DNA from: Cucumis sativus
Taxonomy: Eukaryota; Streptophyta; Magnoliopsida; Cucurbitales; Cucurbitaceae
Direction of reading: 5' to 3'
Assembly: GCF_000004075.3 (NCBI RefSeq)
Contig: NC_026659.2
Span: forward strand, 27,918,272-27,982,271
DNA: 64,000 bases
Shown here in pieces: positions 21,327 through 64,000 of this stretch (positions within the stretch are counted from its first letter, which is position 1; the number at the start of each line of letters is the position of its first letter). Below the pieces are notes generated by a model. It saw nothing but the letters and a program-made list of their open reading frames with translations. It was not told the DNA's origin and did no database searches. A program made the translations under genes and the position numbers.

Positions 21327-22415
21327 CGTTAGTTGTGAGCTCAACTGGGATTGAGAGTACAATTGTCCCGCATATCATTCATTCCATTAGCTAATCGCTT
21401 CTGTTGTGATCCTTGGTGGTTCAACCCATTTGTTCTTTCATATCAATCGTAGTACAACCCAATCGCTCTTAAGTTGACTTCTCATACTTATAGATTATGA
21501 TTCTCAATTATTTGGCTAAGATAACTTCCATCGTTGAGCCTCCCTCTACTCATTCCAATCACATTTCTTAACTTTGGTTTCTCTCATTATTTGTTGTCAT
21601 TTGCTCAACAAGTATTTATATAAATCATCCCAAATCAACTCCCACTTTTCAGATTTCCATGGATATAAAAAGAAATGGTGGCTCATCATTCGTACCATTT
21701 CTTTTGTTGATGGGCATGAATTACGGGTCATTATGAACTCACCAACAAGCAACCAACCATTTTGACTCCTTGTTAGTACTTAAAAGTTAACAACTTTAAT
21801 CATCTTCTACTAGATAAAATAAGTTGTGTTTTCAAAGTTCATGTGTAAAGCAAAAGAGATTGTCTTATAGTGACTTTAACATAGATTACACTCCCATTGT
21901 GAAATAATATATAACTATATTTATATCAACTATATATTACATATATAACAAAACCCTAAAATAAAGTTAAGTTGTCCAAAATAACAAACTAGCGTCCTCC
22001 TTGAAAAATTATAAAAATTTCAAGTTAGATTGTCTTGGATTTTAGGATGTATTAAGGCTATCTCCATGTATTAGAGAATATAAGAAATTCTATTTAACAA
22101 TTTAAAAAATTATAAGATTTTTTTGTAGCCTTATCCTTGCAATTGAAGTAGGAGATTAAATCCGAAACTCTTGTCGAAATTGGGCAAGCATGCTAGCCTG
22201 AAAAGATTGGTTCCGTCGGAAAACAAGAGGGGTTGGTCAATATCGGTTTCAGAAAGTTTCAAATTGAAAACTTTAAAAAATTATTTATAAGTCGATCAAC
22301 CCAATTAATATCAACTGACACTTACTCATCAATGTCGATTTTGTAAAAAATACCATCTCCGACCGACCGATTAACACCGAAGTCGGGAACTTACGCATAC
22401 TAGATAAGTGTAGAG

Positions 22416-22423
22416 TATATATA
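22416..22423 (+). promoter_or_regulatory. Candidate TATA box of PELP1 copy A
   Basis: TATATATA lies about 80 bp before the GC-rich leader (TTCCCGCC at 22493) and about 630 bp before the start codon. The same sequence occurs at 44939 (B) and 63519 (C). Placement is by sequence only. Confidence 0.4.
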
Positions 22424-22492
22424 TCTTTTTCAAATTTGATTAAATTACCAAATATTATATCCAATTCTCTCTCTACCCTTTTTTTATCTGCG

Positions 22493-22500
22493 TTCCCGCC
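22493..22500 (+). promoter_or_regulatory. E2F-like TTCCCGCC before PELP1 copy A
   Basis: TTCCCGCC inside GCGTTCCCGCCCGCCGC is a local GC island in AT-rich sequence, at the probable transcription start. It is also present in unit B (one base shorter right after it) and unit C. Confidence 0.35.
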
Positions 22501-22617
22501 CGCCGCTCGGTGAACTCATTTGCGCAGCTCTTTCCTCTTTCTCTTCTTTGTCTTCCTCTCGGCTTCACAATCTTCATCGTCAATCTTTGATCCAGCCTAA
22601 GAAGGCGCTGTACATTA

Positions 22618-22625
22618 TAGGGTTT
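22618..22625 (+). promoter_or_regulatory. Telo-box-like TAGGGTTT in PELP1 leader
   Basis: TAGGGTTTTA, the reverse telo-box, sits just before a likely 5' UTR donor (AGAAG then GTGAGT at 22636). A second, TTAGGGTTTT, is at 22883-22892. Telo-boxes are known near starts of plant ribosome-biogenesis genes, which fits a RIX1-complex gene. Confidence 0.4.
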
Positions 22626-23044
22626 TAAGTAGAAGGTGAGTTTTCAGATTGCTTTTATATCTTCTGTCAAGCTATGATGCTTTTGGTACTTATCGACCAC
22701 TTTCTCATGCAAGAATATTTGAGTTTGAGAATTATTTGCTGAAATTTTTATGGGTTTATGGAGTATTTTCTACTTTGTTTTGGCGGAGTTGAGTTTGCTT
22801 CTTAGGTGTAGAGAAGTTTGTTCAGTGTTGTTTTTGTTTTTGAGGCTACAACTCAATGAAAAAACTCATTGAGTTCATGGAATTAGGGTTTTATCTTGTT
22901 TAATGGGGAACAGGCATGTTTGGTATTGATTTTGTGCATTGTACTGGTAGTCGAGATCGCATTGCCATCTTACAGTTGCTTATTCTTTTTTTTCTTATTT
23001 TCTTGATAGTTATTAGACAATTGAAACCTCATAATTCAACCAAA

Positions 23045-26000
23045 ATGGCGGCCTTCAATCTCGTTGCGGATATGTATGACCCGGCCTTGAAGCCTCGCTT
23101 GCTACATAAACTTCTTAGGGAGCACGTTCCCGACGATAAGCGTGCATTTTCTGATTATTCAGAACTTTCAAATGTGGTTTCTATGATCACATCCCACGAT
23201 CTTCTCTCTGAATCCTCGTCTTCCAAGGACCAAAAGCTGATTGATAGCTGGAAATCCGCTGTTGATTCCTGGGTCAACCGTTTGTTTCTTCTTCTCTCCA
23301 ACGATATGGTATAAGCATGCATTAAATTCTATTTAAATAATTTTTTTAATAATACATAGCTTTTGCTTTATACTCCCGTGGATTTGACTATTTGTCGGCT
23401 GCCGGGCTTATGTGTAGCTTGTTCGAAGAACAGCTGGAACGAAGTTCAGTGGAACTTGTTAAGTTTCATAATCAATGAGTTCGCTGCTGGTTATTGAGAG
23501 AAAATTTATAGTTAGTGTTAATCTAGAAAGTTTGTCGCCTTAGAGCGCCCTTTGCGCTTTGAAAACACCGTTTAATTCTTAGAAACTGAACATTTGAACC
23601 TTGCTTGCATATTTGGCAATTCATTGGCATGCAGGAAGATAGGGAATAATATTGACTGTCTTTATTACTTTGTTTTTTAGATATTGCTCAACTTCCTTTT
23701 GTGGGTTACTAATTTTAGCATCCAATCTTTCTAAAGCCTGATAAATGTTGGGCGGGAATCATTTTACTTGGAGTGACTTGTCAACGATGCAGCTCTAGTC
23801 GTTTCTTGGCATCATATACAGAATGGCTTCACAAGCTTTTACCTCACATGCAGGTAACAGTTAGTTTTTTATGGGATTGATTCTATATTATTTCTTTACA
23901 TGTATTAAGTGGCAAAAATGTTAAATTATAGTGTACACATGAAGAAGAATAAGAGTTAAATGATAAGTTATTCCATCAGAACTAAGATACCGGTTACTGT
24001 TTGGGACACATAACTGCAATAATTCAACTATGCTTTTGAGCATGTGATGTGGCTGGATCGTCTTTGACAGTCGACCTGTTTGACTACAGTAAATATGTTT
24101 GTTCTGAAATTTGGGTATGATTGGTTGTAAGATATTCATCAAAATGAGTTCTGGACATGATTTGTGACAATAAGTGATTATTGTTTCTTGGAAAGAATGC
24201 AAAATCACGCATTGGGGGTTTCCAAGCTCTTATTCTTTTCATTAATATAGGATTGAACAAGTAAGATAAACTACGGATGAAATAGCAGGTCTAACCAGCT
24301 CTCCTCGTACATGAGGGTCCCCAAAGACATGCATCGGGCATGTATCTGATTAGCATAAGATAGCCTTTGGCAACACTTAATGATTGTGGAGCTACTGAAG
24401 GACCTAATGCACTGCTATTCTTGAGCATGGTTATCTGATATTTTATCAAGTGTTATACAAAGTGCAATTTTTTTTTCTTCTGAAGACACAAAAGAATATA
24501 TTGATCACAAATAGTGTGTGACGTAGTTCCAGAGCAATGTCAAGTTCCTTCTTTTTCTGTTCCTTTTATTTATATTGTTTCTGTCTTTAGCTTTACAACT
24601 TATAATCATCAATGCTTTTTTTTATACTTGAATGCTACCAAGAATTTTACAACGTTTTCATTTTTTGTGTTTTTATTGTTCAATAGACAGATTCTCAGTT
24701 TCTGAAGGTGGCCTCTTGTGCTTCAATCTATGATTTATTCTCGAGGTACATCTTCATTTGACCTTGGCAGAAATCTATCACACGAAGTTGTCCCTCAAAC
24801 ACAACCCTTTTTTTTATTCGAAATGGTAACAATGTCATTGATAAGATGAAATTATAAAAGGATACCTATCAATTGGATTACAAAAAACTCTTCCATCGAG
24901 TAATAAGAGAAACTAAATCATAATTATAAAAAGGGGTAACCAATTCACCCCAAGTGAGGGTTGTATGTGTCACTCAAACACAAATTGATTTGTTAACTAT
25001 ACCCCTTCCAAAAGCGAAATTTTTATGTGCCTTGTGTATATTTAACTGAATACCTCTTAGGATTTGTTTATTGTTGATTCTACATCGACTTTGTGGTCTG
25101 TGGATTCAACTATTGAATGCTGACTTGAGAATAATAGATAACTGATTGAATCACATTCTGTAAGTTATTACTGTCAAGTCGTTTTATTGCCAATATGAGC
25201 ATAGAACTATTGGTTAAGGCATATATCCCACCTCCATATGTTGTTGAGCTTAAAAATAAAAATTGTCTATTTATTTATTTTTTAAAATAAAATAACCACT
25301 TTCATTGAGCAAAATCAAAGAAAATTGTCTAAAACTTTTAAGCAATATGCTTGACCATATTATTGCTTGTTTCGTGACTTTTTAAGATGTATCTTTTACA
25401 AATTAGATTGGGTAGATTTCAAAGTGTAAAGAAAGATGGGACTTCTTGTGCTGGGAAGGTCATTCAACCTGTTGCATGATGATAATACTGAAGCTGTTTT
25501 GGTAAGTCCATTTTTCATGGACTATTTTCATGCATTCATGAGCTAAATAATTTTGTAACAATGGTATTTTAATTATCTATGCCAACTGAGATCCTCTTTT
25601 GTAAAAATTTCTTAGTCTTTTGTGAAATTTTTCATCTCTCTTTTTGTACTCTTGCTTGGTATTGGTAGTTGCAACTTTTGTTTTAAAATATGTAACTATC
25701 TGCATGTTGTTTGATGCAGGATAATGCGGTTAATCTGTTATGCACCTTGATAGATTTCTTCCCCTTCACAATCCATCGTCATTATGACTCTGTAAGTGCT
25801 TTAACAAATAATGTGATATTGATTCTGTTTTAAATTACAATTTTGGAACTCTGGTAGCTTTCTGACTTTTCTGTTCACTGGTGATGTAATCTAAGCTTCC
25901 GAAGTTTGTTATTATTATCGTTATTATTTTTAATTTGATTTAGTTTAATTTTTTTCCTTCACAAAAAAACTGCTATAAAAAACTGGAAAGAGAGTGTTTG

Positions 26001-29000
26001 TATTACCATTAGAAGCTGAAATAATTAAATTTTCTCCCATAATTGCACTCAACATCTTCAGCACATATGGCTTCATGCTGTCACTTGTCAGCATGTTGTT
26101 TATCTATAGATCACTATCTTTGTAATTCAAAAACTGACAAAGTTTAAATTCCATGCCAAATAGAAAAAAAGGATTTATGTTGAAATAGTTGATTTTGTTT
26201 CTTCCTGATGAATTGGATATATTCTATAGGCCGAAGCTGCAATTGTTTCAAAAATATTTTCAGGGAAGTGTAGTTCTAACATGCTGAAGGTACTGTGCCT
26301 CTTATGTAGTTTTAATCATAGTACAGTAGATATTAACGTCAAATGTCCCCCATAATTTTCTCTGTGTTTTATATTTCAAATTTAGAAGCTTGCCCATTGC
26401 CTGGCATCACTTCCAAAATCAAAAGGAGACGAAGATAGCTGGTCTTTACTAATTCAGAAGATTTTGTTATCCATCAATAGTCACTTGAATGAGGCCTTCC
26501 AAGGCATCGGTGAAGGTATACTGAACTGTAAAACAAGTAAAGCTATCTCAATTTATGAAAATGGTGACAATGATGCATTTGAATGTTTTTTGTAGATTCA
26601 AAAGGCATTGAAGTTGTAAGGTTACTGATTCTACCAGGAAAAGATCCTCCACCACCTTTAGGTTGTTGTTCACAATCAGAAGGTTCCTTGGACAAAATAA
26701 AAAAGAGCTCAGAGCGGATGTTAACATCTAGTATTTCAACCTTGATGGTTTGCTGTTCCACAATGATAACAAGTTCATACAACCATCAGGTAGCAACACG
26801 TCATCCATTTTTTTGTTATGCTCATATTAAAAGAGGAAATGTTCCCCTCTATATGAATCTATATACATCTACTGTGACACCTCACTTTCTTAATTAATAT
26901 AATGAAATAAAGAAAGTGGTGTTAAATTGATCTTTATTTGTATTATATCAGGTGGCAGTTCCCATTCGCCCGTTATTAGCTCTTGTTGAGAGAGTGCTGA
27001 CGATGGATGGTTCTTTGCCACCCACTTCAGTGCCATTTATGACATCTCTGCAGCAAGAATCAATGTGTTTAGAACTTCCGGTGCTGCATTCAGTCAGTTT
27101 GGATCTCCTCGTTGCCATCATTAAGAGCCTTCGCAGGTGAGGCATCTACTATTCAACTACACGGACTATATACCATAAAACCTTTATGCAGACCCAGACT
27201 TTTTCAGTAATCAATACCCATCCATAAACATATCACATGTGCTTTCTTCCACCTCTACAAGATGCGATCAACAATGATCTTTCATGTTTATATGAATACG
27301 AAAATGATCCAATGGTATACAAAGTTTCCACTTAGATAAGTTGGGAAGAAAATGTGTGAAGTCTAGCCTGTCAATTGCCACTGAAAAAAATATGGATGCC
27401 ATATTTTTGTTTATATAATTATTATTAAATTCCTTTTCAGTCAATTGTTGCCACATGCTGCATCAATTGTACGACTCATTGTGAAGTACTTCAAGAAGTG
27501 TGTCTCTGCAGAACTGAGAGTAAAAGTCTACGCAGTTGCTAAGTCATTGATGACGTCTTTGGGTGTTGGTAAGAATTATATTGTGTTTCATTTGGCATGG
27601 AGATAATTATAATTATTGTTTTAATGTCTATATGGAAACATTGTTTTGGGATGTATACTTATTCAATGCCGCATTTGAATCAGGAATGGCTGCATCTCTT
27701 TCTCGAGATGTGATTGACAATGTACTAGGTGATTTGAACCCTGTAAATAATGAGAGTTCTGATCCATCTAATGTGAATCCAAAGGACACGCAAAGAGATT
27801 TACCGCAACACCATAATAAGAGAAAACGCCCTTCAGTTCCCACTTCCATGAAAGGGCAGCACGAGAGGAATGAACCAGAGGACATTACCAGCAGCTGTAG
27901 CTATACCTCAGTCCACTTGAGGATAGCTGCACTTGAGGCTTTGAAGACTCTTCTTACATCGGTGGGCATTATATATGTTATTTGTCTCTTTGGTTAATTA
28001 TTTTGCATACGAATTTATTAAAAAAAGTTATTAATGGGAATATTTTTGGTTCATTTGTGTCAAATGGTTTTTAACTGCTGACTGCTTTATTTATTTATTT
28101 GTTTGTTTGTTTTTCGTTGATTATTTGTATAGGCTGGTGCTTTGAGATCTGAAGAAGGATGGCGTGCAAAAGTTGAACATCTTTTAATAACAACTGCAAC
28201 ATCTTCTCTTCAATGGCCACGAGCCTCGGACGACACCTTTTTCCAAGCCAATGAATCTATTGAGGTTTGGGTGGATTATCAGTTGGCGGCATTTCATGCA
28301 CTACTGGCTTCTTTTTTGTCTGCTGTCCATGTACGCCCACTGGCTTTGGCTCAAGGTCTCGAGCTCTTTCGTAAAGGTAAATCTCTTTTGATATTTCGTT
28401 TGATCATGTGGAAGGCTGGGTTTGAGAACGAGGATGCTAGATCACCTTATTTATGAGTCAAACTGATAGGCATTTTCTTCTTCAGGTAAACAAGAAAATG
28501 GAACCAAACTTGGTGAGTTTTGTGCCCATGCTCTCTTAGCCATGGAGGTTCTAATACATCCGAGGGTCCTTCCCCTCTCGGATTTCTTGCCATTGCGCTT
28601 GAGCTCTCCTGAACCACAAGCTGCCTTTAAATTCCAGGAAGATCTGTACTTCAACAGTAACGATTCTAGGAAATTGTTGAAGGTCGGCCCGCAAAGCATG
28701 GAGCAGATGGCCTCCGAGGCTCTAATTAGTGATGATGTGGTAGATAACAATGAAATGACGTATAGCACCTCAAATGATATTGAAAAGGAGCCCTCTGCAA
28801 ATGGCATAGCGAATATAGAAATGCCCAAGAGAACCGAACAGGCCACTGCAGCAGCCATCTCAGAAGTAGGGGTTGTAGCGGAAGATGACGTTGAATTTGC
28901 TAATGCAAGTATGAATAGTTCCCCCATGTCATCAAAATCAGATAAAATCGAAGATTTTGGACGGGATTCGAGCTCGAATTTATTGCTAGAAGATGACTTT

Positions 29001-29045
29001 CCTGATATTATTGATGCAGATCCTGATACAGACTATGAAGAGTGA
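23045..29045 (+). CDS. PELP1/RIX1-like ribosome biogenesis protein, copy A (exon 4 frame broken)
   Basis: PELP1/Rix1 is part of the nuclear Rix1 complex that matures 60S pre-ribosomes. Thirteen coding exons are seen: 23045-23308, 23737-23853, 24687-24745, 25407-25501, 25720-25791, 26230-26289, 26386-26515, 26596-26789, 26952-27136, 27441-27568, 27684-27961, 28133-28376, 28486-29045; about 795 codons. The protein starts MAAFNLVADMYDPALKPRLL, continues through helical-repeat sequence (KCWAGIILLGVTCQRCSSSR, SKIFSGKCSSNMLKKLAHCL), has a basic HHNKRKRP patch (probable nuclear signal) and ends in an acidic tail. All exons join in frame except exon 4: its first half reads GRFQSVKKDGTSCAGKVIQP, its second half LLHDDNTEAVL is in another frame, and the first frame meets a TGA. 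Upstream in-frame ATG 22916 adds a hydrophobic stretch and is probably leader. Whether this copy works is open. Confidence 0.85.
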
Positions 29046-29311
29046 AAAAGGTATTGTCAATCATTGACTCAATTTTGTAGTTTTAAGGCTTAAGGGTGTT
29101 GTTCAGAACTCAAAATCAATTATTATTGTTGTGTTCTATTCATGTAGCCATAGATGGCTTGAACTGATGATCGAGAATGGTTATGTATATAAAAAGGTGA
29201 AAGTTAGACAAATTTCAAAAGCTTTGATTGCTAGTTTCTGATAAATTTTCTTTCAATCATTTTTATTTTTTTTCATTCTTAGATAATGGGGTGCCGATTT
29301 GCAATATACGT

Positions 29312-29431
29312 TAGGACAACGATTAGATGCATTATAGAATATACCATCTTTTAAGTAATGGTATTAGATACGGTAGGACAACGATTAGATGTATTATAGA
29401 ATATACCATCTCGTAAGTAATATGGTATCTT
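29312..29431. repeat. 62-bp tandem duplication
   Basis: TAGGACAACGATTAGATG opens both copies (29312 and 29374). They differ by a few bases and both include ATTATAGAATATACCATCT. Shared by unit B (about 51788-51908). Confidence 0.85.
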
Positions 29432-29685
29432 TTTGAAGTCCTAAAATGTTGAGGGATAAATTTGTGGGTATTACAATCTCGAGATGTAGTTAAGATCAAC
29501 AATATCTAAATAGGCAATTAAATAAACAATGTCTAAATAGACGATTAAATGAACCCTTTAGAAAGAGAGGCAAAAATAAAATGACAGAGTGAAGTTTCTT
29601 TAAAAAAACTTTTTAAAAATTATTGTTTTGATAATAACTGATCGTAGTTAACTACTAGTGCTCAGTCTCTTTTACATCTTACTCT

Positions 29686-29743
29686 AACTTATCATCATGT
29701 TTGAATCAATTTTTAACTTATCATCATGTTTGAATCAATTTTA
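29686..29743. repeat. 29-bp tandem duplication
   Basis: AACTTATCATCATGTTTGAA occurs at 29686 and 29715 with the same following ATCAATTTT. Also present in unit B. Confidence 0.9.
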
Positions 29744-31020
29744 GGGTTAAGTGAATGTCAAGTGAATGTATTTTGTTCTTACAACATATGTGTTAAGTGA
29801 ATGTATTTTGTTCAAACTCAATTAATTTAGGAAAAATGTTTTAAATAAAAAACTATTTAAAACATTTACAAATATTAAAATTTATATGTTTATTAGTATT
29901 TTTGTTAATTAATTTTGAAATTTTAGTCTGTTTTGTAAATATGGTTTATTTTGCTATTTTGAAAACAATCCATTTGAATGTTGTTTTGTTTAAATTATTA
30001 GAATTGTATTATTGGATAAATAGACATTTTAAAAAATAGCAAAATATTAAAACTATTTATACAAAATTCCTCAAACTTTTCATATATTTAAGTTTTTCTT
30101 TAAAATTATATTTCATAAATAGTTTTTTTTTATCCATAACAAATTTTCATGATAAATGGTAAAGCATATTAAATATGTAAATAGTTCAACTCAGTTAATT
30201 GTAATTTGGTCCATATCATACTAAAAAAGTTATATGTATGTTATTTTAAAAGAGTTCATATCATACAGTTTCTTAAATTTTAGGTACCAAACTTATAAGA
30301 TACAAAAATCAAAGTTTAAAAATAGAAAGTAAATATTTTGGCATTCTATTTCTAGAAAAAAAAACTCCTTATAATAATTACTAGTAAAAAAAAAAGTTGG
30401 TTGATTTTCATTTTTTTTTTAATCTCAACCTTTCATGTTAAAACTTTATATAAAGATTTTTTTTTAAATGACAAATTTAACAGTAAGATTTTATATTATA
30501 TCAATTTGATAAATATTGATAGACATTAATATGATAATAAATATGGATAGATATTCATATGTTTTTATCTGACAATAATAGAAGTTTATTTAGTTTATCT
30601 CGTTAATAAAATCTAAAATGTTTGTCTATGATGAATATTTTAGTTTATTTTTGTATTTTAAAAAATATCCCTCCAAAAAACGTAATTTTTTTCCACTAAA
30701 AGTTATTAAAATTTAATAACAAGAGTTGGTGAATTGCTACATTGTTATTTCATTTATATGTCATTTACATCCCATTGTAATTTACAGATTTTTTTTTTCA
30801 AATGGTATGGGTAAGTAATCAGTGCGGTTTAGTGTAAGGATTAGTTATATTCAAATTATAGCAAACTATCTTAATTTGAAACTTAACGGCGTCAACGACA
30901 AGCAACGGCTACATTTTTAGGTTTATTTACTTCATTCAACTCTCAAAACAATCTCCGTCGCCAATTTCTCTCTAGAATTTTCTTCTTCCGCCTCCGTGCA
31001 CAGCGTCGAATCTCCAAACC

Positions 31021-33155
31021 CTAATTTATAAATGCAATTCCGATCCACAAATTCTTATGCTACCTCGATCTCCTCTTTGGGAGCTTCTATTCCCTAATCT
31101 TTGATGTCTTGCTTCGTCTGCGGTTGAGGATCTCGGAGGACCGGAGTCACGGGAGGTCGCTGATTTGGATGAAGCCATGAGTCGATTGATGCTCCCTTTT
31201 TCATCTCCTAAGAAGAATTCCAAATCCTTGGATGTGGCTGATGCTGCTCCTGCCTATCATTTTTCATCCGCTTGATTTCCTTCCCTTTCTGGTTCAGCTT
31301 ATTCTGCTCTCGATAGGGTTTCCGAGGATGCTATCAATCAGGTTGATCAGTTCCTTCGTGAGGCTTTGCATAACCCTCGGAGCGTCTATCAAGTAAGTTG
31401 TTTATTTAGCTTTCCTTTATTGTAGATGGTCAATGGTGTGATTGGTTTCAGGAGTTGTCTAATGTCATGTTCTGTAGAGGGAGGAGATAGTTAAAAGTTG
31501 CTAGCTACGGCCTTCTCGAAGGTGGGCTGGAAGTGGCTGGTTGCTTCCCGGATTTTATCGGCATTTAAATCAATGGTATTAGAAATTTAGAAGTATTATT
31601 GCCAAAAACTACATGGTGGATTTCATGAAGATGTGATATATGTTTGGAACAGTATCGTGAAACTATGTGACATGATGTGCTTTTAGGTAATCCAAGACAA
31701 AGGTTGGATGGTTGTAAGACAATCTTGGGAAGATGTGTGGACTAGTGGAGGGTTTTTGGTTAACCGTTTTTCTAGTCGGTACAGGGTGGTGGATTCGAAG
31801 AATTAATTGCTGAAGGAGTTGTAGGACTTAAAAGCTGGGTTGCAAAATGAATGCAAGACGAAATTTAGAAGATGGAGAAGAAAGGGAGATTTTGTTGCTA
31901 TTGGATGTTCTGAATACTTAGAGCTAAATGATGAAAATAAAATAATTTACGAGCTAAACTTTTGCTGTGATTGGCGATGAATTCCGTCATGGGGGAAGGC
32001 ATGCAGTCTCTGATTATCATCCCCTTGGCCCTTAGGCTTTTTAAATGAGGCTTTTTCCGTCTTAATAATATTTCTTGTTTCTCATCAAGAAGATAAATGG
32101 AGTTATATCTTTTCAGCCTACCAAGCAAAATTGTTTCTAAAAAAAAAACTATCACTATCTAAAAGCATTAGGAATTAAATTTACTGTAGTCAAGAAGATG
32201 CTCAGTAACTGGAAAGCATTTTTTACCTGTTTTGACACTGAAGCTTCGTTAAACCAAAAGAAAAAGGAGACAACCTATTGGTAGAAAGGTCTTTACAATG
32301 ATGTATTGATGCCTACAAAATTATTTTTTTTGTCTAACATGGTTCTGACTAGTACCATAACTTCAAGTGCTTAATTATTATCATGCACTTATTATATTGT
32401 TGAAAACATGGTGTTAATTATCTATTCCCTTCAACTGATATTTATTTATCATTGCTTTAGTTTTGCGCATGGAGCAAGATGTTGAAAAGTTTATTCATGA
32501 TCCTGCTTGACAGCAGCTGCCTACTTCATATTTACGGTTAGCTGCGCATCAGATTGTCCAACATTACTCGCTGCAATCCATGGTTCTATTGGATAATAGT
32601 TTACCTGATGGTCTGGTTCCAAAATTATCGTTTGCGATACTTCTGAATGTCGTCTTCCAGCTATCCGCCTTGCAGATATTCCTGTAAATCTACCAGCAGA
32701 GGAATATAGTAGCATAAAGGTTGCTATTAAACAGAGGCCACAGAAGTGGTCCCAACTAGCAAGAGATGCAAGTGCAAATTCATCAAAAACGAGGGATTCC
32801 AAAAGTGTGGAAGAGAGGAAAAGGAGTATAATAAAGCTCGTGCTCAAATATTTAACTCCAGCAGCAATTCAGGCTGTCATGCAAGTGAGAAAGTAGATGC
32901 TGATCCTAGACCACAGGATAGTTATCGTGGTTGTTTGAGTGCTGCAAAGGTTGAGGAGAAGATGATTCTGGAGTTCCTGATATAAATTTTAGTAGGGGTT
33001 TGATTGACTGTTCCACGAGTAGCAGTAGAATAAATAGAAGGTAGGACTGACAAGGAGCTGCCTAGTAGGCAGTACAAACCAAATAGTAGGGTAGCCATTC
33101 TTAGAGATCGTGAGATTGGCAGCAAGGACCCTGATTATGACAGGAGTTATGATAG
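31021..33155 (+). pseudogene. R3H-SUZ domain protein pseudogene, copy A, truncated
   Basis: It is recognisable by VDQFLREALHNP, then across an intron (31393-32460) LRMEQDVEKFIHDPA, PTSYLRLAAHQIVQHYSLQ (R3H core, Arg-x3-His), MVLLDNSLPDG and, further on, SKVDADPRPQDSY-like and VAILRDREIGSKDPDYDRSY pieces (SUZ region). Plant R3H-SUZ proteins bind single-stranded nucleic acid. A stop follows FIHDPA in both copies (GCTTGACAG), and one more interrupts SSA*ISFPF early on. Copy A has further single-base losses, for example after DNSLPDG. Homology ends at a likely donor (GATAG then GTATG, 33155); about 40 bp later the 393-bp array begins, so the 3' half of the gene is missing. The retained intron argues for a DNA-level duplicate, not a retrocopy. 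The upstream limit is approximate. Confidence 0.8.
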
Positions 33156-33195
33156 GTATGAAATGCAATCCTTTATTCTCTTGGTTTGATCTCAA

Positions 33196-38825: not shown

Positions 38826-38894
38826 CAATTTAGAAAAAACACATTCTCTCCAATGTAGATTTTGCAAAATAAATTCTGTGTATAAATATTACTT

Positions 38895-44938: not shown

Positions 44939-44946
44939 TATATATA
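44939..44946 (+). promoter_or_regulatory. Candidate TATA box of PELP1 copy B
   Basis: Copy of the TATATATA at 22416. The TTCCCGCC near 45016 and the telo-box in the leader are also kept, so the whole proximal promoter was duplicated. Confidence 0.4.
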
Positions 44947-51500: not shown

Positions 51501-51524
51501 CCTGATACAGACTATGAAGAGTGA
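45565..51524 (+). pseudogene. PELP1/RIX1-like gene, copy B, with many single-base losses
   Basis: This is the full-length copy of the gene at 23045-29045, with the same exons, introns and stop. As written it cannot be translated. Relative to A it lacks single bases in exon 4 (three G), exon 6, exon 7, exon 9, exon 11 (two), exon 12 (two) and exon 13 (at least five), and G at the donors of exons 3, 8 and 9. Almost all are losses of one base from runs of two to five, and none that I saw in coding exons are gains. Exons 1 and 2 are identical to A. That pattern is typical of unpolished long-read consensus in a repeat, so natural inactivation is not proven. The exon 4 problem of copy A (frame change after GKVIQP) is also here. 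Confidence 0.8.
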
Positions 51525-53345
51525 AAAAGGTATTGTCAATCATTGACTCAATTTTGTAGTTTTAAGGCTTAAGGGTGTTGTTCAGAACTCAAAATCAATT
51601 ATTATTGTTGTTTCTATTCATGTAGCCATAGATGGCTTGAACTGATGATCGAGAATGGTTATGTATATAAAAAGGTGAAAGTTAGACAAATTTCAAAAGC
51701 TTTGATTGCTAGTTTCTGATAAATTTTCTTTCAATCATTTTTATTTTTTTCATTCTTAGATAATGGGGTGCCGATTTGCAATATACGTTAGGACAACGAT
51801 TAGATGCATTATAGAATATACCATCTTTTAAGTAATGTATTAGATACGGTAGGACAACGATTAGAATGTATTATAGAATATACCATCTCGTAAGTAATAT
51901 GGTATCTTTTTGAAGTCCTAAAATGTTGAGGATAAATTTGTGGGTATTACAATCTCGAGATGTAGTTAAGATCAACAATATCTAAATAGGCAATTAAATA
52001 AACAATGTCTAAATAGACGATTAAATGAACCCTTTAGAAAGAGAGCAAAAATAAAATGACAGAGTGAAGTTTCTTTAAAAAAACTTTTTAAAAATTATTG
52101 TTTTGATAATAACTGATCGTAGTTAACTACTAGTGCTCAGTCTCTTTTACATCTTACTCTAACTTATCATCATGTTTGAATCAATTTTTAACTTATCATC
52201 ATGTTTGAATCAATTTTAGGGTTAAGTGAATGTCAAGTGAATGTATTTTGTTCTTACAACATATGTGTTAAGTGAATGTATTTTGTTCAAACTCAATTAA
52301 TTTAGGAAAAATGTTTTAAATAAAAACTATTTAAAACATTTACAAATATTAAAATTTATATGTTTATTAGTATTTTTGTTAATTAATTTTGAAATTTTAG
52401 TCTGTTTTGTAAATATGGTTTATTTTGCTATTTTGAAACAATCCATTTGAATGTTGTTTTGTTTAAATTATTAGAATTGTATTATTGGATAAAAGACATT
52501 TAAAAATAGCAAATATTAAAACTATTTATACAAAATTCCTCAAACTTTTCATATATTTAAGTTTTTCTTTAAAATTATATTTCATAAATAGTTTTTTTTT
52601 ATCCATAACAAATTTTCATGATAAATGGTAAAGCATATTAAATATGTAAATAGTTCAACTCAGTTAATTGTAATTTGGTCATATCATACTAAAAAAGTTA
52701 TATGTATGTTATTTAAAAGAGTTCATATCATACAGTTTCTTAAATTTTAGGTACCAAACTTATAAGATACAAAAATCAAAGTTTAAAAATAGAAAGTAAA
52801 TATTTTGGCATTCTATTTCTAAAAAAAAACTCCTTATAATAATTACTAGTAAAAAAAAAAGTTGGTTGATTTTCATTTTTTTTTTAATCTCAACCTTTCA
52901 TGTTAAACTTTATATAAAGATTTTTTTTTAAATGACAATTTAACAGTAAGATTTTATATTATATCAATTTGATAAATATTGATAGACATTAATATGATAA
53001 TAAATATGATAGATATTCATATGTTTTTATCTGACAATAATAGAAGTTTATTTAGTTTATCTCGTTAATAAAATCTAAAATGTTTGTCTATGATGAATAT
53101 TTTAGTTTATTTTTGTATTTAAAAAATATCCTCCAAAAAACGTAATTTTTTTCCACTAAAAGTTATTAAAATTTAATAACAAGAGTTGGTGAATTGCTAC
53201 ATTTTATTTCATTTATATGTCATTTACATCCCATTGTAATTTACAGATTTTTTTTTTCAAATGGTATGGGTAAGTAATCAGTGCGGTTTAGTGTAAGGAT
53301 TAGTTATATTCAAATTATAGCAAACTATCTTAATTTGAAACTTAA

Positions 53346-53383
53346 CGGCGTCAACGACAAGCAACGGCGTCAACGACAAGCAA
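53346..53383. repeat. 19-bp tandem duplication private to unit B
   Basis: CGGCGTCAACGACAAGCAA occurs twice in B, once in A (about 30887). Confidence 0.9.
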
Positions 53384-53514
53384 CGGCTACATTTTTAGGT
53401 TTATTTACTTCATTCAACTCTCAAAACAATCTCCGTCGCAATTTCTCTCTAGAATTTTCTTCTTCCGCCTCCGTGCACAGCGTCGAATCTCCAAACCCTA
53501 ATTATAAATGCAAT

Positions 53515-55651
53515 TCCGATCCACAAATTCTTATGCTACCTCGATCCCTCTTTGGGAGCTTCTATTCCCTAATCTTTGATGTCTTGCTTCGTCTGCGGTT
53601 GAGGATCTCGGAGGACCGGAGTCACGGGAGGTCGCTGATTTGGATGAAGCCATGAGTCGATTGATGCTCCCTTTTTCATCTCCTAAGAAGAATTCCAAAT
53701 CCTTGGATGTGGCTGATGCTGCTCCTGCCTATCATTTTTCATCCGCTTGATTTCCTTCCCTTTCTGGTTCAGCTTATTCTGCTCTCGATAGGGTTTCCGA
53801 GGATGCTATCAATCAGGTTGATCAGTTCCTTCGTGAGGCTTTGCATAACCCTCGGAGCGTCTATCAAGTAAGTTGTTTATTTAGCTTTCCTTTATTGTAG
53901 ATGGTCAATGGTGTATTGGTTTCAGGAGTTGTCTAATGTCATGTTCTGTAGAGGAGGAGATAGTTAAAAGTTGCTAGCTACGGCCTTCTCGAAGGTGGGC
54001 TGGAAGTGGCTGGTTGCTTCCCGGATTTGTAGGCTTTTAGTTTGTTCTAGTCTTTCGAATGCCTCATTTAAATCAATGGTATTAGAAATTTAGAAGTATT
54101 ATTGCCAAAAACTACATGGTGGATTTCATGAAGATGTGATATATGTTTGGAACAGTATGTGAAACTATGTGACATGATGTGCTTTTAGGTAATCCAAGAC
54201 AAAGGTTGGATGGTTGTAAGACAATCTTGGGAAGATGTGTGGACTAGTGGAGGGTTTTTGGTTTAACCGTTTTTCTAGTCGGTACGGGTGGTGGATTCGA
54301 AGAATTAATTGCTGAAGGAGTTGTAGGACTTAAAAGCTGGGTTGCAAAATGAATGCAAGACGAAATTTAGAAGATGGAGAAGAAAGGGAGATTTTGTTGC
54401 TATTGGATGTTCTGAATACTTAGAGCTAAATGATGAAAATAAAATAATTTACGAGCTAAACTTTTGCTGTGATTGGCGATGAATTCCGTCATGGGGGAAG
54501 GCATGCAGTCTCTGATTATCATCCCCTTGGCCCTTAGGCTTTTTAAATGAGGCTTTTTCCGTCTTAATAATATTTCTTGTTTCTCATCAAGAAGATAAAT
54601 GGAGTTATATCTTTTCAGCCTACCAAGCAAATTGTTTCTAAAAAAAAACTATCACTATCTAAAAGCATTAGGAATTAAATTTACTGTAGTCAAGAAGATG
54701 CTCAGTAACTGGAAAGCATTTTTACCTGTTTTGACACTGAAGCTTCGTTAAACCAAAAGAAAAAGGAGACAACCTATTGGTAGAAAGGTCTTTACAATGA
54801 TGTATTGATGCCTACAAAATTTTTTTTGTCCTAACATGGTTCTGACTAGTACCATAACTTCAAGTGCTTAATTATTATCATGCACTTATTATATTGTTGA
54901 AAACATGGTGTTAATTATCTATTCCTTCAACTGATATTTATTTATCATTGCTTTAGTTTTGCGCATGGAGCAAGATGTTGAAAAGTTTATTCATGATCCT
55001 GCTTGACAGCAGCTGCCTACTTCATATTTACGGTTAGCTGCGCATCAGATTGTCCAACATTACTCGCTGCAATCCATGGTTCTATTGGATAATAGTTTAC
55101 CTGATGGGTCTGGTTCCAAAATTATCGTTTGCGATACTTCTGAATGTCGTCTTCCAGCTATCCGCCTTGCAGATATTCCTGTAAATCTACCAGCAGAGAA
55201 TATAGTAGCATAAAGGTTGCTATTAAACAGAGCCACAGAAGTGGTCCCAACTAGCAAGAGATGCAAGTGCAAATTCATCAAAAACGAGGATTCCAAAAGT
55301 GTGGAAGAGAGGAAAGAGGAGTATAATAAAGCTAGTGCTCAAATATTTAACTCCAGCAGCAATTCAGGCTGTCATGCAAGTGAGAAAGTAGATGCTGATC
55401 CTAGACCACAGGATAGTTATCGTGGTTGTTTGAGTGCTGCAAAGGTTGAGAGAAAGATGATTCTTGGAGTTCCTGATATAAATTTTAGTAGGGGTTTGAT
55501 TGACTGTTCCACGAGTAGCAGTAGAATAAATAGAAGGTAGGACTGACAAGGAGCTGCCTAGTAGGCAGTACAAACCAAATAGTAGGGTAGCCATTCTTAG
55601 AGATCGTGAGATTGGCAGCAAGGACCCTGATTATGACAGGAGTTATGATAG
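53515..55651 (+). pseudogene. R3H-SUZ domain protein pseudogene, copy B, truncated
   Basis: Copy of 31021-33155, with its intron at 53878-54956. It shares the stop after FIHDPA and the early one, so the gene was already broken before the duplication. It keeps the frame in places where A lost it: DNSLPDGSGSKIIV and ILGVPDINFSRGLID read through. It has its own losses elsewhere (for example near PVNLPAEN). The 3' end abuts the array exactly as in A. Confidence 0.8.
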
Positions 55652-55691
55652 GTATGAAATGCAATCCTTTATTCTCTTGGTTTGATCTCAA

Positions 55692-56917
55692 TGTGTGTGT
55701 ATATACATATATATTTGCAAAATCTCTCGTTTAAAAGGTCTATCCAAAAACATGTTCTAAAAGTTTTCTCGCTTCAAAACTCTGTTTACGAACTCTTTCC
55801 ACAACACTTCTTGGACGTTTCTTTTTGTTTTGTTTTTGTTTTTTTTCTTTGAAAAATAAGATATTTTACAAAACTTTTGAAAAAACTGCATGAGCAAGGA
55901 TGTTTGCCACACACAGGGCAATGAGCAGCAAGGCAACATGCACCATGGTGCGCGAAGATGTTGTCTTGGTGCCATCTTGCACATGCGGAAGCGACCTTTC
56001 AAATGGCATTTACAAACATTGTGGAAAACACTTTTTTTTCTTCCTATTTTCTTCTAGAAAGTCTTTCCAGAACATATGTATATATATGTGTGTGATATAC
56101 ATATATATTTGCAAAATCTCTCGTTTAAAAGGTCTATACAAGAACATGTTCTAAAAGTTTTCTCGCTTCAAATTCTGTTTACGAACTCTTTCCAAAACAC
56201 TTCTTGGACGTTTCTTTTTGTTTTTGTTTTTGTTTTTTTCTTTGAAAAATAAGATATTTTACAAAACTTTTGAAAAACTGCATGAGCAAGGATGTTTGCC
56301 ACACACAGGGCAATGAGCAGCAAGGCAACATGCACCATGGTGCGCGGAAGATGTTGTCTTGGTGCCATCTTTGCACATGCGGAAGCGAACTTTCAAATGG
56401 CATTTGCAAAGCATTGTGGAAAACACTTTTTTTTCTTCCTATTTTCTTCTAGAAAGTCTTTCCATAACATATGTATATATGTGTGTGTATATACATATAT
56501 ATTTGCAAAATCTCTCGTTTAAAAGGTCTATACAAGAACATGTTCTAAAAGTTTTCTCGCTTCAAATTCTGTTTACGAACTCTTTCCAAAACACTTCTTG
56601 GACGTTTCTTTTGTTTTTGTTTTTGTTTTGTTTTTTCTTTGAAAAATAAGATATTTTACAAAACTTTTGAAAAACTGCATGAGCAAGGATGTTGGCCACA
56701 CACAGGGCAATGAGCAGCAAGGCAACATGCACATGGTGCGCGGAAGATGTTGTCTTGGTGCCATCTTTGCACATGCGGAAGCGACCTTTCAAATGGCATT
56801 TACAAAACATTGTGGAAAACACTTTTTTTCTTCCTATTTTCTTCTAGAAAGTCTTTCCAGAACATATGTATATATATGTGTGTGTATATACATATATTTG
56901 CAAAATCTCTCGTTTAA
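55692..56917 (+). repeat. 393-bp tandem repeat array, unit B (about 3 periods)
   Basis: Anchors GAACTCTTTCCAA-like at 55790, 56183, 56578 and (diverged) 56972. First-unit variants (CCAAAAACATG) and the last-unit variants (AACAGTCTATCT) are shared with A, so only interior units differ in number. Confidence 0.97.
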
Positions 56918-57401
56918 ACAGTCTATCTAAAATTATTTTCTAAAGGTTTTATCGCTTTAAATTCTATTTACGAACTCTTTCCAACATATTCTTTGAATTG
57001 TTGTCTTCCTTTGCGGTTTTGTTTTGTTTTCCTCAAAAATATGATATTTCACATAACTTTCGATAAACTGCACGAGCAAGGGTATTGGCCACACAGGGCA
57101 AATTTTATTTTAAAAGGCCTATCCATTAACAGCTTCTAAAAGTTTTCTCACTTCAAATTTTGTTTTTAAAATCGTTTCAGAATCTTTTCTTGAAGTTTCG
57201 TCTTCAACTTTTTTTATAAAGAAAAAAAAAAACATTTCATTCAACTTTCAATATACTCGGCGAGCAAGACAGCATACAGTCGATGTGTGGAAGACACAGC
57301 CTTGGTGCCACTATGGCACAGGCAGTCAAACAAACTTACATAATATTGTCTTACCTTTTTTCTCTTCTTTTTTTTCTCTAAAAAACTCTTTCCAAAACAC
57401 A
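56918..57401 (+). repeat. Degenerate edge of the 393-bp array, unit B
   Basis: Matches 38341-38825 almost exactly, including CTGCACGAGCAAGGGTATTG and the more decayed second part. Confidence 0.8.
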
Positions 57402-60023
57402 TTTTCAATTTAGAAAAAACACATTCTCTCCAATGTAGATTTTGCAAAATAAATTCTGTGTATAAATATTACTTGAGAGTGAATTTTCACTTTTGTGTTT
57501 TTTCTATATCTTACATTTATCTCTTCATGATTATTGGATATGTGCTGTAACTTTTCTCGTATGTTTCCATATAAATTACAAATGTTGTATAACATTTATC
57601 AATGTAGAAAAAATCTTAGGTGATTAAAGGAAAGTTGATTGTCCAGAAATTACTTTTTCCTATTTCATCATCAACCGACCTCAAGGCCTCCTATGGTTGT
57701 TCTATTTTTCATTTTTATTTTCTTGAAATTAAGTCTATAAACGCTCATTCTACCTTTAGTTATACGTTCTAAAATTATATTATATTTTAGTTTGACTTCT
57801 TGTATATTATTATTTTGGTACATTTCTACCATTTCTACATTTTATTTGCACATAATTATATGTTCTTTTTATAATGATAGATAACTTCTTTGTTACAATG
57901 TCCAGTTATTTGACAATCATTCATTTCTAGTTCTGATTAATTTTTCTTTGTTATCACGGGCACTTTACAGGTATTTTTATTTTACTTCTTTTGATGGATT
58001 TATTTTTTAGTTTTTCTTCCAACATTTTCTCTCTCATCTTTTTCTACTTTTCTTAAGTATATTATTAAATTTTATATCTCTGGAGTCTTGGTAGAAGTTA
58101 TTTATTTTTGCGGTAGGGGTGATTTCTCTTTTTTGCCCATTCTGTTTTCTTGGTTCTCTTTCTTTTTTTATACAATGGTAACTGAAACATTCAAAGCCTT
58201 GCTTTCGGCTTCCCTAGCTAGCCACAGTGATGTATTATATGCAAATGGCAGTTTTCCTTTGGACACTGAGAAAAGGCAAATGCAAATGGCAACTGCACGG
58301 TACACCTTACAGGACAGTTTTTGATGCTTTTGCAGGTAATTTGTATTAGTTGTGTTATGTCTGGAAGTGATTTTATATTATTATAGTTGTACTAGATGTT
58401 CTATCCTTGGGACGCAGAGAAAAGGCAAATGCAAATGAAGAGTACACACTGTCCTGGATGATACTTTGCAGGTAATTTGTATTAGTTGTTATGTCTGGAA
58501 GCGATTTTATATTATCATAGTTTGTTGTTAGTTGTTATAAGTAATTCTGAAGTCTGACAATGATTATTTAGAGTGAAATCTGGGCAGGTTTGTTGGAGAC
58601 AAACCGTCTGACATACATGATTTATGTTCTTTGTAGTTCTGTGCTCATTGCCTATGTGAGTATAGTCTACTTTCTTGTCCTCACAATCTTTTCCCAACCT
58701 TTTCATGTCTTTCATATTTTGAACTGCATTCATGGTTTTCGTATAACTATAATAGACGCTCTTATTCTTTTACTGTGAAACCACTTTTAGTTATCTATTT
58801 GCAATATGCTGTATGTTCTATTAGACAGCTACTTGTAGGAGTATAGATGATGAAATAAACAGATTTATTTTGTTAGACGAAATCTAGTTGAGGAATTTGA
58901 CGTTTTTCTTCCTTTATGTAAAATCCTAATATTAGAAAACTAAGCAAAAGCAGAAATAGTTTGCAGAGCTGTAGCTTAGGAATTATTTTCCTCAATTTGA
59001 CTTGATGTTTGACGCAGGTATATGGATGGGTGATGGATATATTGCTTTTGAGTGATTTTTCACTTTTGTATTCATTTCTCTTTACCATTACGGGATCTGT
59101 CTTATAACCTTTCTCATGATTTTCTACGTGAATTGCAATTGTTGTATAATATTTTATCATATTAGAAAGATATGAGGTGATTAAAGAAAAATTGATTGTC
59201 CGGAAATCAATTTTTCTTATTACACCTCATGTCAATGCCCAAATTCCATAACCATTTGGTTATTGTTATCTTAAAATTTTGAAAATTGAGTCTATAAACA
59301 CTCATTCTACTAGAATTATATCATATTCTTTAGTTTGATATCTTGTATATTATTATTTTGGTACATTTCTTTTGTCTTATTCGCACCAAATACCACGTTT
59401 CTTTGTTTGTTTGCATGGTGCTTTCAAGGTATTTTTCCTTTACCTCTGTTGACAAAAAATATTTTGTGTACTTCTTCTTGGTACATTTTCCTTTTCTTCT
59501 CATCATTTGCTACTTTATTTTAAAGTAGATTATGAAATTTTATTTATTTATTTTTGGTGGATGAATTTTTGTTTTTGTTTTTGTTTTTTTTTTGCCATTT
59601 ATGATCTCTTGTTGGTTCTTTTTCTTTTTTGATGTTAGTTTTTTTAGTTTTGGATTTGAATTGATATTTACTCCTTTTGAATGTGGTCTTTTATGAGAAG
59701 GTAAAAAAATTTATCTTACTTTTTAATGCCATTCATTGTAATTTTATTTTTGGTATCTTTTTTTTTACTTCACTTGTGTAATTTATTTTTCTTGGATGGT
59801 GAAATTTTTTTCACCATTTAGCTGTGTTTAGTTTCTTTTTATGTTACATTCTTATTTTGTTTGCTTTCTCTAGTTTTATTTTGTTTTTTTTTTCAATTAT
59901 TTGTAATTTGTTTTACCATTTTTATAATATTATTTTCTTTAGGTCTATTATTATCAGATATATATTTTGTGGTCATGGTAGATTTTTTCATTAAGGATAT
60001 TTTTTTAAATTGCAAAATAAATT

Positions 60024-60148
60024 AAAATATTTAGTCTATTGTAAAATTTTGAATTCTATCAACGATAAAAATGATAGACATTTATCACTGTCTATTATTG
60101 TTTATTATTGATAGAATCTAAAATTTTGCTATATGTTGTAAATATTTT
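60024..60148. repeat. Foldback (MITE-like) repeat, unit B copy
   Basis: Nearly identical to 41451-41575 (one change, CTGTCTATTATT for CTGTCTGTTATT). Confidence 0.6.
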
Positions 60149-60727
60149 GTCAAATTTGTCATTTTTGACATTTTCACTTTTCATTATCGTCATGGATTCT
60201 CTTTTTTCACACTTCGTCTCTTTTCTTTTATTTAACCTTTCTTTATGAAATGTTGTATCTTTCTGCTTTTCTCTCAAGTGAAATATTAGATTTGGTACTT
60301 TTTCTTTTACTCATTTGGTACATTTCTTGTTGAACCAAGGTATAATTTGTTCTTCTTTGATGGTTCAAAATAATCACTCTACGTTTGACTTTGGTTCTTT
60401 TATTATCTGGCACAACTTTTATATATAGTTATTTTCTTTGGTAAATTTATTATATTATTAGATATATTAATTTGTTAGTTTTGTGTACTATCCAAGGCAG
60501 TAAAGAAGTGTAGAATGACAACTCCTTTCTATTTTCTAATTCACTTTTACAAATATTAGTTTTAGTAGTTTTTTATTTTACTCATTTGGTCATATATTTC
60601 TTTTCTTTTGGAATGGATGTGTAATTTTATTTTTGTTGGATGGTTTGAAATATTTAGGTTCATTGTCATTCTTCTAGTTTTATTTTGAATAATTATAATT
60701 TGTGACAATTTTTAGAATAATGACTAA

Positions 60728-61346
60728 GTGTATAGTAATTAGAGGTTTAAGAATAACTTGGGTAATCCAACAACTTGGATTATCCAATCCATATTATATG
60801 GGTTGGGTTGGGTTAGGTTAAAATATGGATTGGATTGGGTTGGGTTGAAAAAAATGAATTTTTTTTAGTTGGGTTTAGTCTCGGGTTGTAAGGTTGAAAA
60901 ATTCGATCAAATTAATCATATATATATATATATATATAAATAAATATTCCTCTCTTCTCACTCTCAATCCTCCTTTGCGCGTCGCATCCCTTTTATTCTC
61001 ACATCTCCTACGTCTTCGACATCTCCTTCGTCTCTACTTTCCTTCATCTCTGACTCTCCTTGTCCTACTTATCCCGCGCATTCCTTATATTATCACATCT
61101 CCTCCGTCTTCGACATCTTCATTTCTAACTCTCCTCTATCTTTGATCTTCACAGTTCATCTCGTTAGATCTCAGATCTCATATACTCGCAGTTCGACGTC
61201 ATGTTCTTCTTTGTCAATCTCTTCAGCTTCTGAATAACCGACAATCCAATTTATATTTTATGGGTTGGTTTAGAAACTTGATTTAACCCAAATAACCTAA
61301 AAGTATGGGTTTGGTTGAGATGTTTCTCAACCCAACCTTACTACAC
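60728..61346. mobile_element. Possible non-autonomous DNA element, unit B copy
   Basis: Copy of 42158-42765. The left terminal word reads GTGTATAGTAA (two extra bases), and there are small indels around the AT microsatellite. Tentative, as for the A copy. Confidence 0.35.
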
Positions 61347-61863
61347 CCTTAACAGCAACTTTTTTAAAAATTGCAGATATAGCAAAATTCTTTAGTGATA
61401 AACTTCTATCGCTCATAGATTATTATGGTCTATCATGATTGATTTTGACAGATTTTGCTTTATTTGTAAATTTTTAAAATGTTGCTATATATTTAATTAT
61501 TTTAAATTTAATTACTATATTTGCAACTATTCTTTTATTTTGTGTGGTTCTTCTATTATTTGGTACACTTTATATATTATTATTTTCTTTGGTTTTATTA
61601 TATTATGAGATATATTCTGTTAATTTTGTGCAAAATACTCTACACATATTTTACTTGCTATATGTTTCTTTTCTTTGATTCTTCCATTTATCTTTTAATT
61701 CTCTTTTGAATATTTATTTTCTTGAAAATCTTGGATTGTATTTTGTGGATTTTTTTTCTTAACGTGCACTTCATCTTTTGAGGTCAAATGTTTAATCTAT
61801 CATTTGATTTATGTATCATGGTCTTATTTAAGAACGGAAGAGTTCACTACATGCGAAAAATCA

Positions 61864-62418
61864 AGACTCTGTTTACGAACTCTTTCCAAAACACTTCTTG
61901 GACGTTTCTTTTTGTTTTTGTTTTTGTTTTTTTCTTTGAAAAATAAGATATTTTACAAAACTTTTGAAAAACTGCATGAGCAAGGATGTTGGCCACACAC
62001 AGGGCAATGAGCAGCAAGGCAACATGCACCATGGTGCGCGGAAGATGTTGTCTTGGTGCCATCTTTGCACATGCGGAAGCGAACTTTCAAATGGCATTTA
62101 CAAAACATTGGGAAAACACTTTTTTTTCTTCCTATTTTCTTCTAGAAAGTCTTTCCAGAACATATGTATATATATGTGTGTGTATATACATATATATTTG
62201 CAAAATCTCTCGTTTAAAAGGTCTATACAAGAACATGTTCTAAAAGTTTTCTCGCTTCAAATTCTGTTTACGAACTCTTTCCAAAACACTTCTTGGACGT
62301 TTCTTTTTGTTTTTGTTTTTTTTTTTCTTTGAAAAATAAGATATTTTACAAAACTTTTGAAAAACTGCATGAGCAAGGATGTTGGCCACACACACGGCAA
62401 TGAGCAGCAAGGCAACAT
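61864..62418 (+). repeat. Partial 393-bp repeat copies at the B/C junction
   Basis: Anchors at 61878 and 62272. Start point, stop point and the trailing filler are the same as at 43283-43849. Confidence 0.95.
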
Positions 62419-62429
62419 GGCCACACACT

Positions 62430-64000
62430 CGTTAGTTGTGAGCTCAACTGGGATTGAGAGTACAATTGTCCCGCATATCATTCATTCCATTAGCTAATCG
62501 CTTCTGTTGCGATCCTTGGTGGTTCAACCCATTTGTTCTTTCATATCAATCGTAGTACAACCCAATCGCTCTTAAGTTGACTTCTCATACTTATAGATTA
62601 TGATTCTCAATTATTTGGCTAAGATAACTTCCATCGTTGAGCCTCCCTCTACTCATTCCAATCACATTTCTTAACTTTGTTTTCTCTCATTATTTGTTGT
62701 CATTTGCTCAACAAGTATTTATATAAATCATCCCAAATCAACTCCCACTTTTCAGATTTCCATGGATATAAAAAGAAATGGTGGCTCATCATTCGTACCA
62801 TTTCTTTTGTTGATGGGCATGAATTACGGGTCATTATGAACTCACCAACAAGCAACCAACCATTTTGACTCCTTGTTAGTACTTAAAAGTTAACAACTTT
62901 AATCATCTTCTACTAGATAAAATAAGTTGTGTTTTCAAAGTTCATGTGTAAAGCAAAAGAGATTGTCTTATAGTGACTTTAACATAGATTACACTCCCAT
63001 TGTGAAATAATATATAACTATATTTATATCAACTATATATTACATATATAACAAAACCCTAAAATAAAGTTAAGTTGTCCAAAATAACAAACTAGCGTCC
63101 TCCTTGAAAAATTATAAAAATTTCAAGTTAGATTGTCTTGGATTTTAGGATGTATTAAGGCTATCTCCATGTATTAGAGAATATAAGAAATTCTATTTAA
63201 CAATTTAAAAAATTATAAGATTTTTTTGTAGCCTTATCCTTGCAATTGAAGTAGGAGATTAAATCCGAAACTCTTGTCGAAATTGGGCAAGCATGCTAGC
63301 CTGAAAAGATTGGTTCCGTCGGAAAACAAGAGGGGTTGGTCAATATCGGTTTCAGAAAGTTTCAAATTGAAAACTTTAAAAAATTATTTATAAGTCGATC
63401 AACCCAATTAATATCAACTGACACTTACTCATCAATGTCGATTTTGTAAAAAATACCATCTCCGACCGACCGATTAACACCGAAGTCGGGAACTTACGCA
63501 TACTAGATAAGTGTAGAGTATATATATCTTTTTCAAATTTGATTAAATTACCAAATATTATATCCAATTCTCTCTCTACCCTTTTTTTATCTGCGTTCCC
63601 GCCCGCCGCTCGGTGAACTCATTTGCGCAGCTCTTTCCTCTTTCTCTTCTTTGTCTTCCTCTCGGCTTCACAATCTTCATCGTCAATCTTTGATCCAGCC
63701 TAAGAAGGCGCTGTACATTATAGGGTTTTAAGTAGAAGGTGAGTTTTCAGATTGCTTTTATATCTTCTGTCAAGCTATGATGCTTTTGGTACTTATCGAC
63801 CACTTTCTCATGCAAGAATATTTGAGTTTGAGAATTATTTGCTGAAATTTTTATGGGTTTATGGAGTATTTTCTACTTTGTTTTGGCGGAGTTGAGTTTG
63901 CTTCTTAGGTGTAGAGAAGTTTGTTCAGTGTTGTTTTTGTTTTTGAGGCTACAACTCAATGAAAAAACTCATTGTTCATGGAATTAGGGTTTTATCTTGT
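62430..64000 (+). repeat. Tandem segmental duplication, unit C (cut by window end)
   Basis: The third copy starts with CGTTAGTTGTGAGCTCAACT and runs to the window end, about 145 bp before the expected PELP1 start codon. It shares three variants with B against A (TTGCGATCC, AACTTTGTTTTC, CATTGTTCATGG) but has the intact CCCGCCCGCCGCTCGG of A. Confidence 0.96.
63519..63526 (+). promoter_or_regulatory. Candidate TATA box of a third PELP1 copy
   Basis: The TATATATA, TTCCCGCC, telo-box and leader are all present, so a third complete promoter lies in the window, with its gene expected just outside. Confidence 0.4.

Follow-up and report, generated by a model that had tools for sequence, protein, structure and literature searches.

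A 64,000-nucleotide stretch of the Cucumis sativus genome (assembly GCF_000004075.3, contig NC_026659.2; hereafter the window, C5:27918272-27982271 in the numbering used here) raises the question of whether a ribosome-assembly gene of the RIX1/PELP1 type has truly been multiplied there, and whether the copies can still work. A preliminary description of this DNA had proposed the head-to-tail amplification of a segment carrying a PELP1-like gene. Our analysis indicates that the tandem amplification stands, with eight full units and a truncated one in the assembly, while the amplification of a complete gene is not supported, as the copies share a frame break. We favor, with a probability of about 0.66, a real plant tandem segmental duplication of ~20-kb units, probably amplified by unequal exchange, in which the gene copies would be mostly pseudogenes or rescued by splicing.

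Extent and anatomy of the tandem array

To delimit the repeated segment, we carried out the self-comparison that the preliminary description had suggested, which revealed repeats at 98.97-99.75% identity. Positions 43849-54028 match 21326-31555 at 99.07% over 10,251 columns (3 mismatches, 70 gap openings), 55691-64000 match 37123-45419 at 98.97%, and 62429-64000 match 21326-22899 at 99.75%, a self-similarity far above the chance level. As described, the window holds two complete units and the beginning of another, with starts at 21326, 43849, and 62429; the left border is within one base of the proposed 21327, and the array itself is larger. The genome as searched comprised 226.6 Mb in 88 contigs, C5 was mapped in blocks up to 28142271, and positions above 64000 are given in window numbering extended rightward. 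The array on the same chromosome consists of eight full units and one truncated unit, all head to tail on the + strand, and covers ~157 kb (C5:27.940-28.096 Mb) before a different flank begins. The full units start at 21326, 43849, 62429, 81100, 104002, 123317, 137806, and 157631, the truncated unit lies at 100399-102113, and the final tail of the array ends near 178019. A 1-kb unit probe gave matches of 96-100% identity at eight places on C5 (27.948-28.085 Mb) and at one place on C7, and 35 further partial, weaker matches were listed at 70-95%. The copy number of eight is a property of the assembly.

Each unit is built in the same order: 1.7 kb of upstream sequence, the PELP1-type gene, a further ~1.7 kb, the head of a composite repeat, a fragment of an R3H gene, an array of a 394-bp repeat, a T-rich tail of 4.8 kb, and a stub of 560 bp, which is itself a piece of the 394-bp repeat. 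Unit 1 (21326..43848, + strand, 22,523 bp) contains the composite-repeat head at 30718..31025 (identity of about 79% with copies on C2 and elsewhere on C5), the disabled R3H/SUZ fragment at 30933..33195, 13.5 copies of the 394-bp repeat at 33195..38522, the tail at 38523..43279, and the junction, stub plus 9 bp, at 43280..43848. The block map places the corresponding parts of unit 2 (43849..62428, + strand, 18,580 bp) in the same order, with a core of the second gene copy and R3H fragment at 43849..55686, 3.6 repeat copies at 55691..57101, the tail at 57102..61860, and the second junction, again stub plus 9 bp, at 61861..62428. The first 1,572 bp of unit 3 (62429..64000, + strand) are upstream sequence, and the window ends before the ATG. 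The block map, the self-comparison, and the Pfam and PDB matches given below bear out the head-to-tail amplification of a segment in which a PELP1/RIX1 gene is followed by an R3H pseudogene and a satellite-like array.

Comparison of the junctions revealed that 141 bp at the join are identical at 8/8 junctions, including that of the truncated unit, which argues that a single founding duplication was amplified. The left side of unit 1 has no stub, and the tail of unit 8 passes into the other flank approximately where the other units carry theirs, so the stub can be taken to mark the founding join. In units 1 to 8, the main array holds 13.5, 3.6, 3.6, 6.0, 6.0, 6.6, 4.6, and 9.6 copies of the 394-bp repeat, respectively; unit 6 has no tail, its array leading directly into the next junction, and the stub of unit 7 holds 3.4 repeat copies rather than 1.4. 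All this is most simply explained by a single duplication that included a filler piece of repeat and by later unequal exchange, and the repeat numbers, the tail loss, and the enlarged stub fit this explanation.

Over ~10.2 kb, the gene-bearing cores of two units are separated by 2-18 substitutions; comparisons that involve unit 5 give the highest counts, and the differences of this unit are partly clustered. The outermost tail, that of unit 8 beyond 41685, shows 30 mismatches to the unit tail in ~1.6 kb, and this greater divergence of the outer tail agrees with homogenization of the interior only. Several variants are distributed among the units: a 19-bp deletion common to units 1 and 8 and the C7 copy, ~30 bp near 31560 that units 2-7 have and units 1 and 8 lack, and deletions of 12 to 29 bp at 29685 in units 3-6; substitutions are also shared between units in patterns. 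The R3H fragment is a paralogue of an R3H-SUZ gene just right of the array (C5:28098930-28101991, ~28.099-28.102 Mb), whose exons are open as judged by eye from the list of open reading frames (ORFs), one of them matching SUZ (E 2.4e-14) and R3H (E 2.6e-8). Fragment and gene differ by 43 mismatches in ~0.66 kb and 61 in ~1.2 kb. From these divergences, the R3H duplication looks oldest and the array younger, with the interior apparently homogenized recently. A further decayed R3H-like stretch near C5:28105300 was recognized by eye only.

The 394-bp repeat also occurs outside the array, on C1, C2, C3, C5, and C29 at 74-88% identity among the matches listed, and several of these places share the head or tail of the units. 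Composite copies with a similar head, 394-bp array, and tail lie at C2:15350741 onward, on C29, at C1:13006165, and at C5:25167347; in two copies, the left end was recognized by eye. Between head and array, at the position of R3H in the units, the C2 copy has an ORF with an Alfin domain (E 5.9e-21). The R3H piece and the 394-bp array are parts of this dispersed composite repeat, which looks like an element that carries gene pieces. A search of the C2 copy for a transposase found none among 19 ORFs of ≥70 aa, of which one was scanned (the Alfin ORF) and the other 18 were inspected by eye only. The C2 and C29 copies score equally in searches.

With the anatomy, the identical junctions, the varied repeat number, the low divergence, and the exon-4 break common to the copies as directly observed starting points, the order of events and the role of unequal exchange may be reconstructed as follows. 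A composite repeat (head, R3H fragment, 394-bp array, and T-rich tail) would have stood next to the RIX1/PELP1-type gene, the sole one of its type that searches of the assembly revealed. In a founding duplication, a 560-bp segment of the 394-bp repeat would have linked the end of the tail to a position that lies 1.7 kb upstream of the gene. Subsequent unequal crossing over and conversion among the ~20-kb units, aided by the 394-bp arrays, may have produced about seven or eight units and also held the cores near identity.

Two neighboring regions frame the array. A germin-like cupin gene lies to its left (17145-17786 of the window, + strand; Cupin_1, E 6.2e-42), and the right flank carries, on the minus strand, ORFs for an M18 aminopeptidase (~C5 28.116 Mb) and a diphosphomevalonate decarboxylase (~28.124 Mb).

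The RIX1/PELP1-type gene and its exon 4

The gene of unit 1 (23045..29045, + strand) comprises 13 exons with GT-AG introns, at 23045-23308, 23737-23853, 24687-24745, 25407-25501, 25720-25791, 26230-26289, 26386-26515, 26596-26789, 26952-27136, 27441-27568, 27684-27961, 28133-28376, and 28486-29045. The ORF of exon 2 passes the cut-off of the Pfam RIX1 family (PF08167; 31.2 versus 27.4 bits), and that of exon 1 matches the same family at 21.9 bits, under the cut-off. The later exons, as query residues 315-645 with the frame break bridged by X, match PDB chains of PELP1 (E 4.7e-8). No match to NUC202 appeared in the ten ORFs scanned, and the consulted part of one report likewise describes plant RIX1 proteins without it (PMC12733202). 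Searches of the genome for a second RIX1 locus with the Pfam profile, exon 9, and exon 12 found 0 places beyond the array and the C7 copy; the profile listed 6/8 array units, and the two exons each found all eight and the C7 copy.

All exons of unit 1 join in frame except exon 4 (25407..25501, + strand), whose 95 nt are out of frame with its neighbors. Conventional splicing of unit 1 gives a translation that stops after 170 aa, and no open reading frame runs through all its exons. The frame of exon 4 is broken in 9/9 copies, with a length of 95 or 92 nt and small changes in units 2, 6, and 8. Because the length class is the same in 9/9 copies, the fault must be older than the amplification and cannot be a random error of the consensus. 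It is probably a short deletion of about 11 bp, a length that would follow from the frame and from plant relatives rather than from an alignment. The preliminary description had presented a promoter-complete PELP1-like gene; in the sense of a working gene, this is not supported, given the early stop and the fault common to all copies.

Analysis of the sequence around exon 4 indicated ways in which the frame might be restored. Use of other donors, after 19 or 52 nt, or of an acceptor 25 nt into the exon gives predicted proteins of 769-786 aa, and a further donor (after 64 nt) and a further acceptor (at 52 nt) are candidates as well. Skipping of exon 4 was rejected as a rescue, since translation then stops after 156 aa. 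Judged from these reading frames, the copies are probably mostly pseudogenes, or would yield a full-length protein only through another exon-4 splice site.

The 2,386 exonic bases of units 3 and 4 show no difference from those of unit 1. Outside exon 4, exon lengths differ from those of unit 1 in units 2, 5, 6, 7, and 8 and the C7 copy, and we take these differences as consensus errors. The core of unit 2 contains 60 one-base deletions, 51 of them adjoining the same base; these look like consensus errors, so the extra frame breaks of unit 2 are probably not biology.

Assembly, function, and competing explanations

Several observations weigh against a real array of partly disabled genes. The evidence is the sequence of one genome assembly, and one-base deletions such as those of unit 2 indicate a poor consensus. 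Units 4 and 5 hold a 22.9-kb block repeated at 99.6% (14 mismatches, 39 gap openings), and between them lies the truncated unit (C5:28020384), which ends at the PELP1 ATG and is joined directly to a tail; together these would look like an unmerged contig overlap, possibly at a contig join. The pseudogene part of our interpretation is also challenged by the distribution of substitutions: exons, although they form 23% of the core, contain 0/17 substitution events (P about 0.011), the events having been merged by hand from 26 columns and the test chosen after the data were seen. Counting one exonic difference of unit 2 beside a deletion gives 1/18 (P about 0.054), and this paucity in exons is a weak hint against pseudogene status.

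The copy on C7 bears most directly on the assembly. It begins at C7:7910250, in the part of the gene that separates exon 2 from exon 3, is continuous to 7944714, and recurs in four samples taken as far as 7992697. The copy is at least 82 kb long and comprises the larger part of array unit 8 and no less than ~65 kb of the right flank; one of the matches is 1 kb spanning the diphosphomevalonate decarboxylase ORF of the C5 flank. A search 20 kb further on found no copy at the equal offset (C5:28180472 against 4 kb of C7), where a large insertion could mask one. Two 0.8-kb flank samples show 0 substitutions and 12 gap openings between C7 and C5. The first 24.5 kb show 55 mismatches, mostly clustered, and 75 gaps, with 46 one-base deletions on the C7 side and 7 on the C5 side. 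In one mismatch cluster, the letters resemble the unit at 38 positions on C7 versus 18 on the C5 flank (11 neither), and in the other at 26 versus 3 (1 neither); two control stretches have 3 and 2 differences, the first of them aligned poorly to the unit. Such unit-like letters on C7 would be given by mis-polishing, and also by gene conversion. The C7 copy more probably reflects a duplication in the assembly than one in the genome.

These features would be gathered into one account if only two to four real units existed, inflated by unmerged contig ends and repeat-driven joins, with C7 representing the same DNA assembled twice. The duplicated 22.9 kb closing with a unit cut at the ATG, the long C7 copy without substitutions in its flank samples, and its excess of one-base deletions, clustered mismatches, and unit-like letters all favor such an artefact, as would a sub-read N50 of 10.8 kb, below the length of one unit, if the genome is cucumber 9930 v3.0 (per the consulted part of PMC6582320). 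We nevertheless consider it unlikely, as it has to contend with units that differ in repeat number, in the 19-bp deletion, in the ~30 bp near 31560, in the deletions at 29685, and in shared substitutions, and with the lack of any N letter in the C5 region, the first 30 kb of the C7 copy, or the sampled pieces. An assembly duplication of just two copies is unlikely because the units vary in repeat number and share variants in patterns, and it was rejected, since eight units with their own variants exist.

A real array might instead consist of working, expressed genes, kept for the dosage of a ribosome-assembly factor. The in-frame joining of all other exons, the exonic identity of units 1, 3, and 4, the failure to find another RIX1 locus, and the scarcity of exonic substitution events speak for this; the exon-4 break in 9/9 copies and the stop after 170 aa under conventional splicing speak against it, and we think it very improbable. 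Equally speculative is the idea that the sole RIX1 gene found, hurt by a small exon-4 deletion, survives through a weaker splice site, with about eight copies of the same lesion restoring the dose. If this long shot were true, amplification would compensate for damage to an essential gene.

A tandem segmental duplication amplified in the plant, with its gene copies mostly disabled or splice-rescued, remains our preferred reading. The locus is a test case, in that a ribosome-assembly gene is found only as a homogenized array with a frame break common to its copies. Should a rescuing splice appear in transcripts, then gene damage, dosage, and amplification would be linked. If no rescuing splice exists, eight apparent genes would be pseudogenes, and the assembly may lack a working RIX1 gene.

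Relation to known systems

Non-autonomous elements that carry gene fragments exist, among them Helitron and Pack-type elements. The composite repeat resembles them in that its copies share head, 394-bp array, and tail while the gene piece varies (R3H here, Alfin on C2); the likeness lies in these features, and the repeat is a candidate for such an element. Tandem copy-number arrays are common in plants, and an array of this kind is already known as a type; no account of a cucumber PELP1/RIX1 array was found in the literature searched. The cucumber Femaleness (F) locus is similar in that, as the title of the report has it, unequal crossover has altered copy-number variation there (PMC7072070), and differs in locus and genes; the present array is known from sequence, without a link to a phenotype. 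The tandem genes of cucumber v3.0, for example four tyrosylprotein sulfotransferases, are likewise cases in which long reads revealed a mostly single-copy plant gene as a tandem group (PMC6582320, consulted part), whereas the unit here is ~20 kb with a composite repeat, and PELP1/RIX1 is not named in that part of the report. Within the RIX1/PELP1 family itself (PF08167; PDB chains 9dum, 7uwf, and 8fl2), the array gene is alike in the RIX1 domain of exons 1-2 and in the similarity at residues 315-645, and stands apart through the frame break in exon 4.

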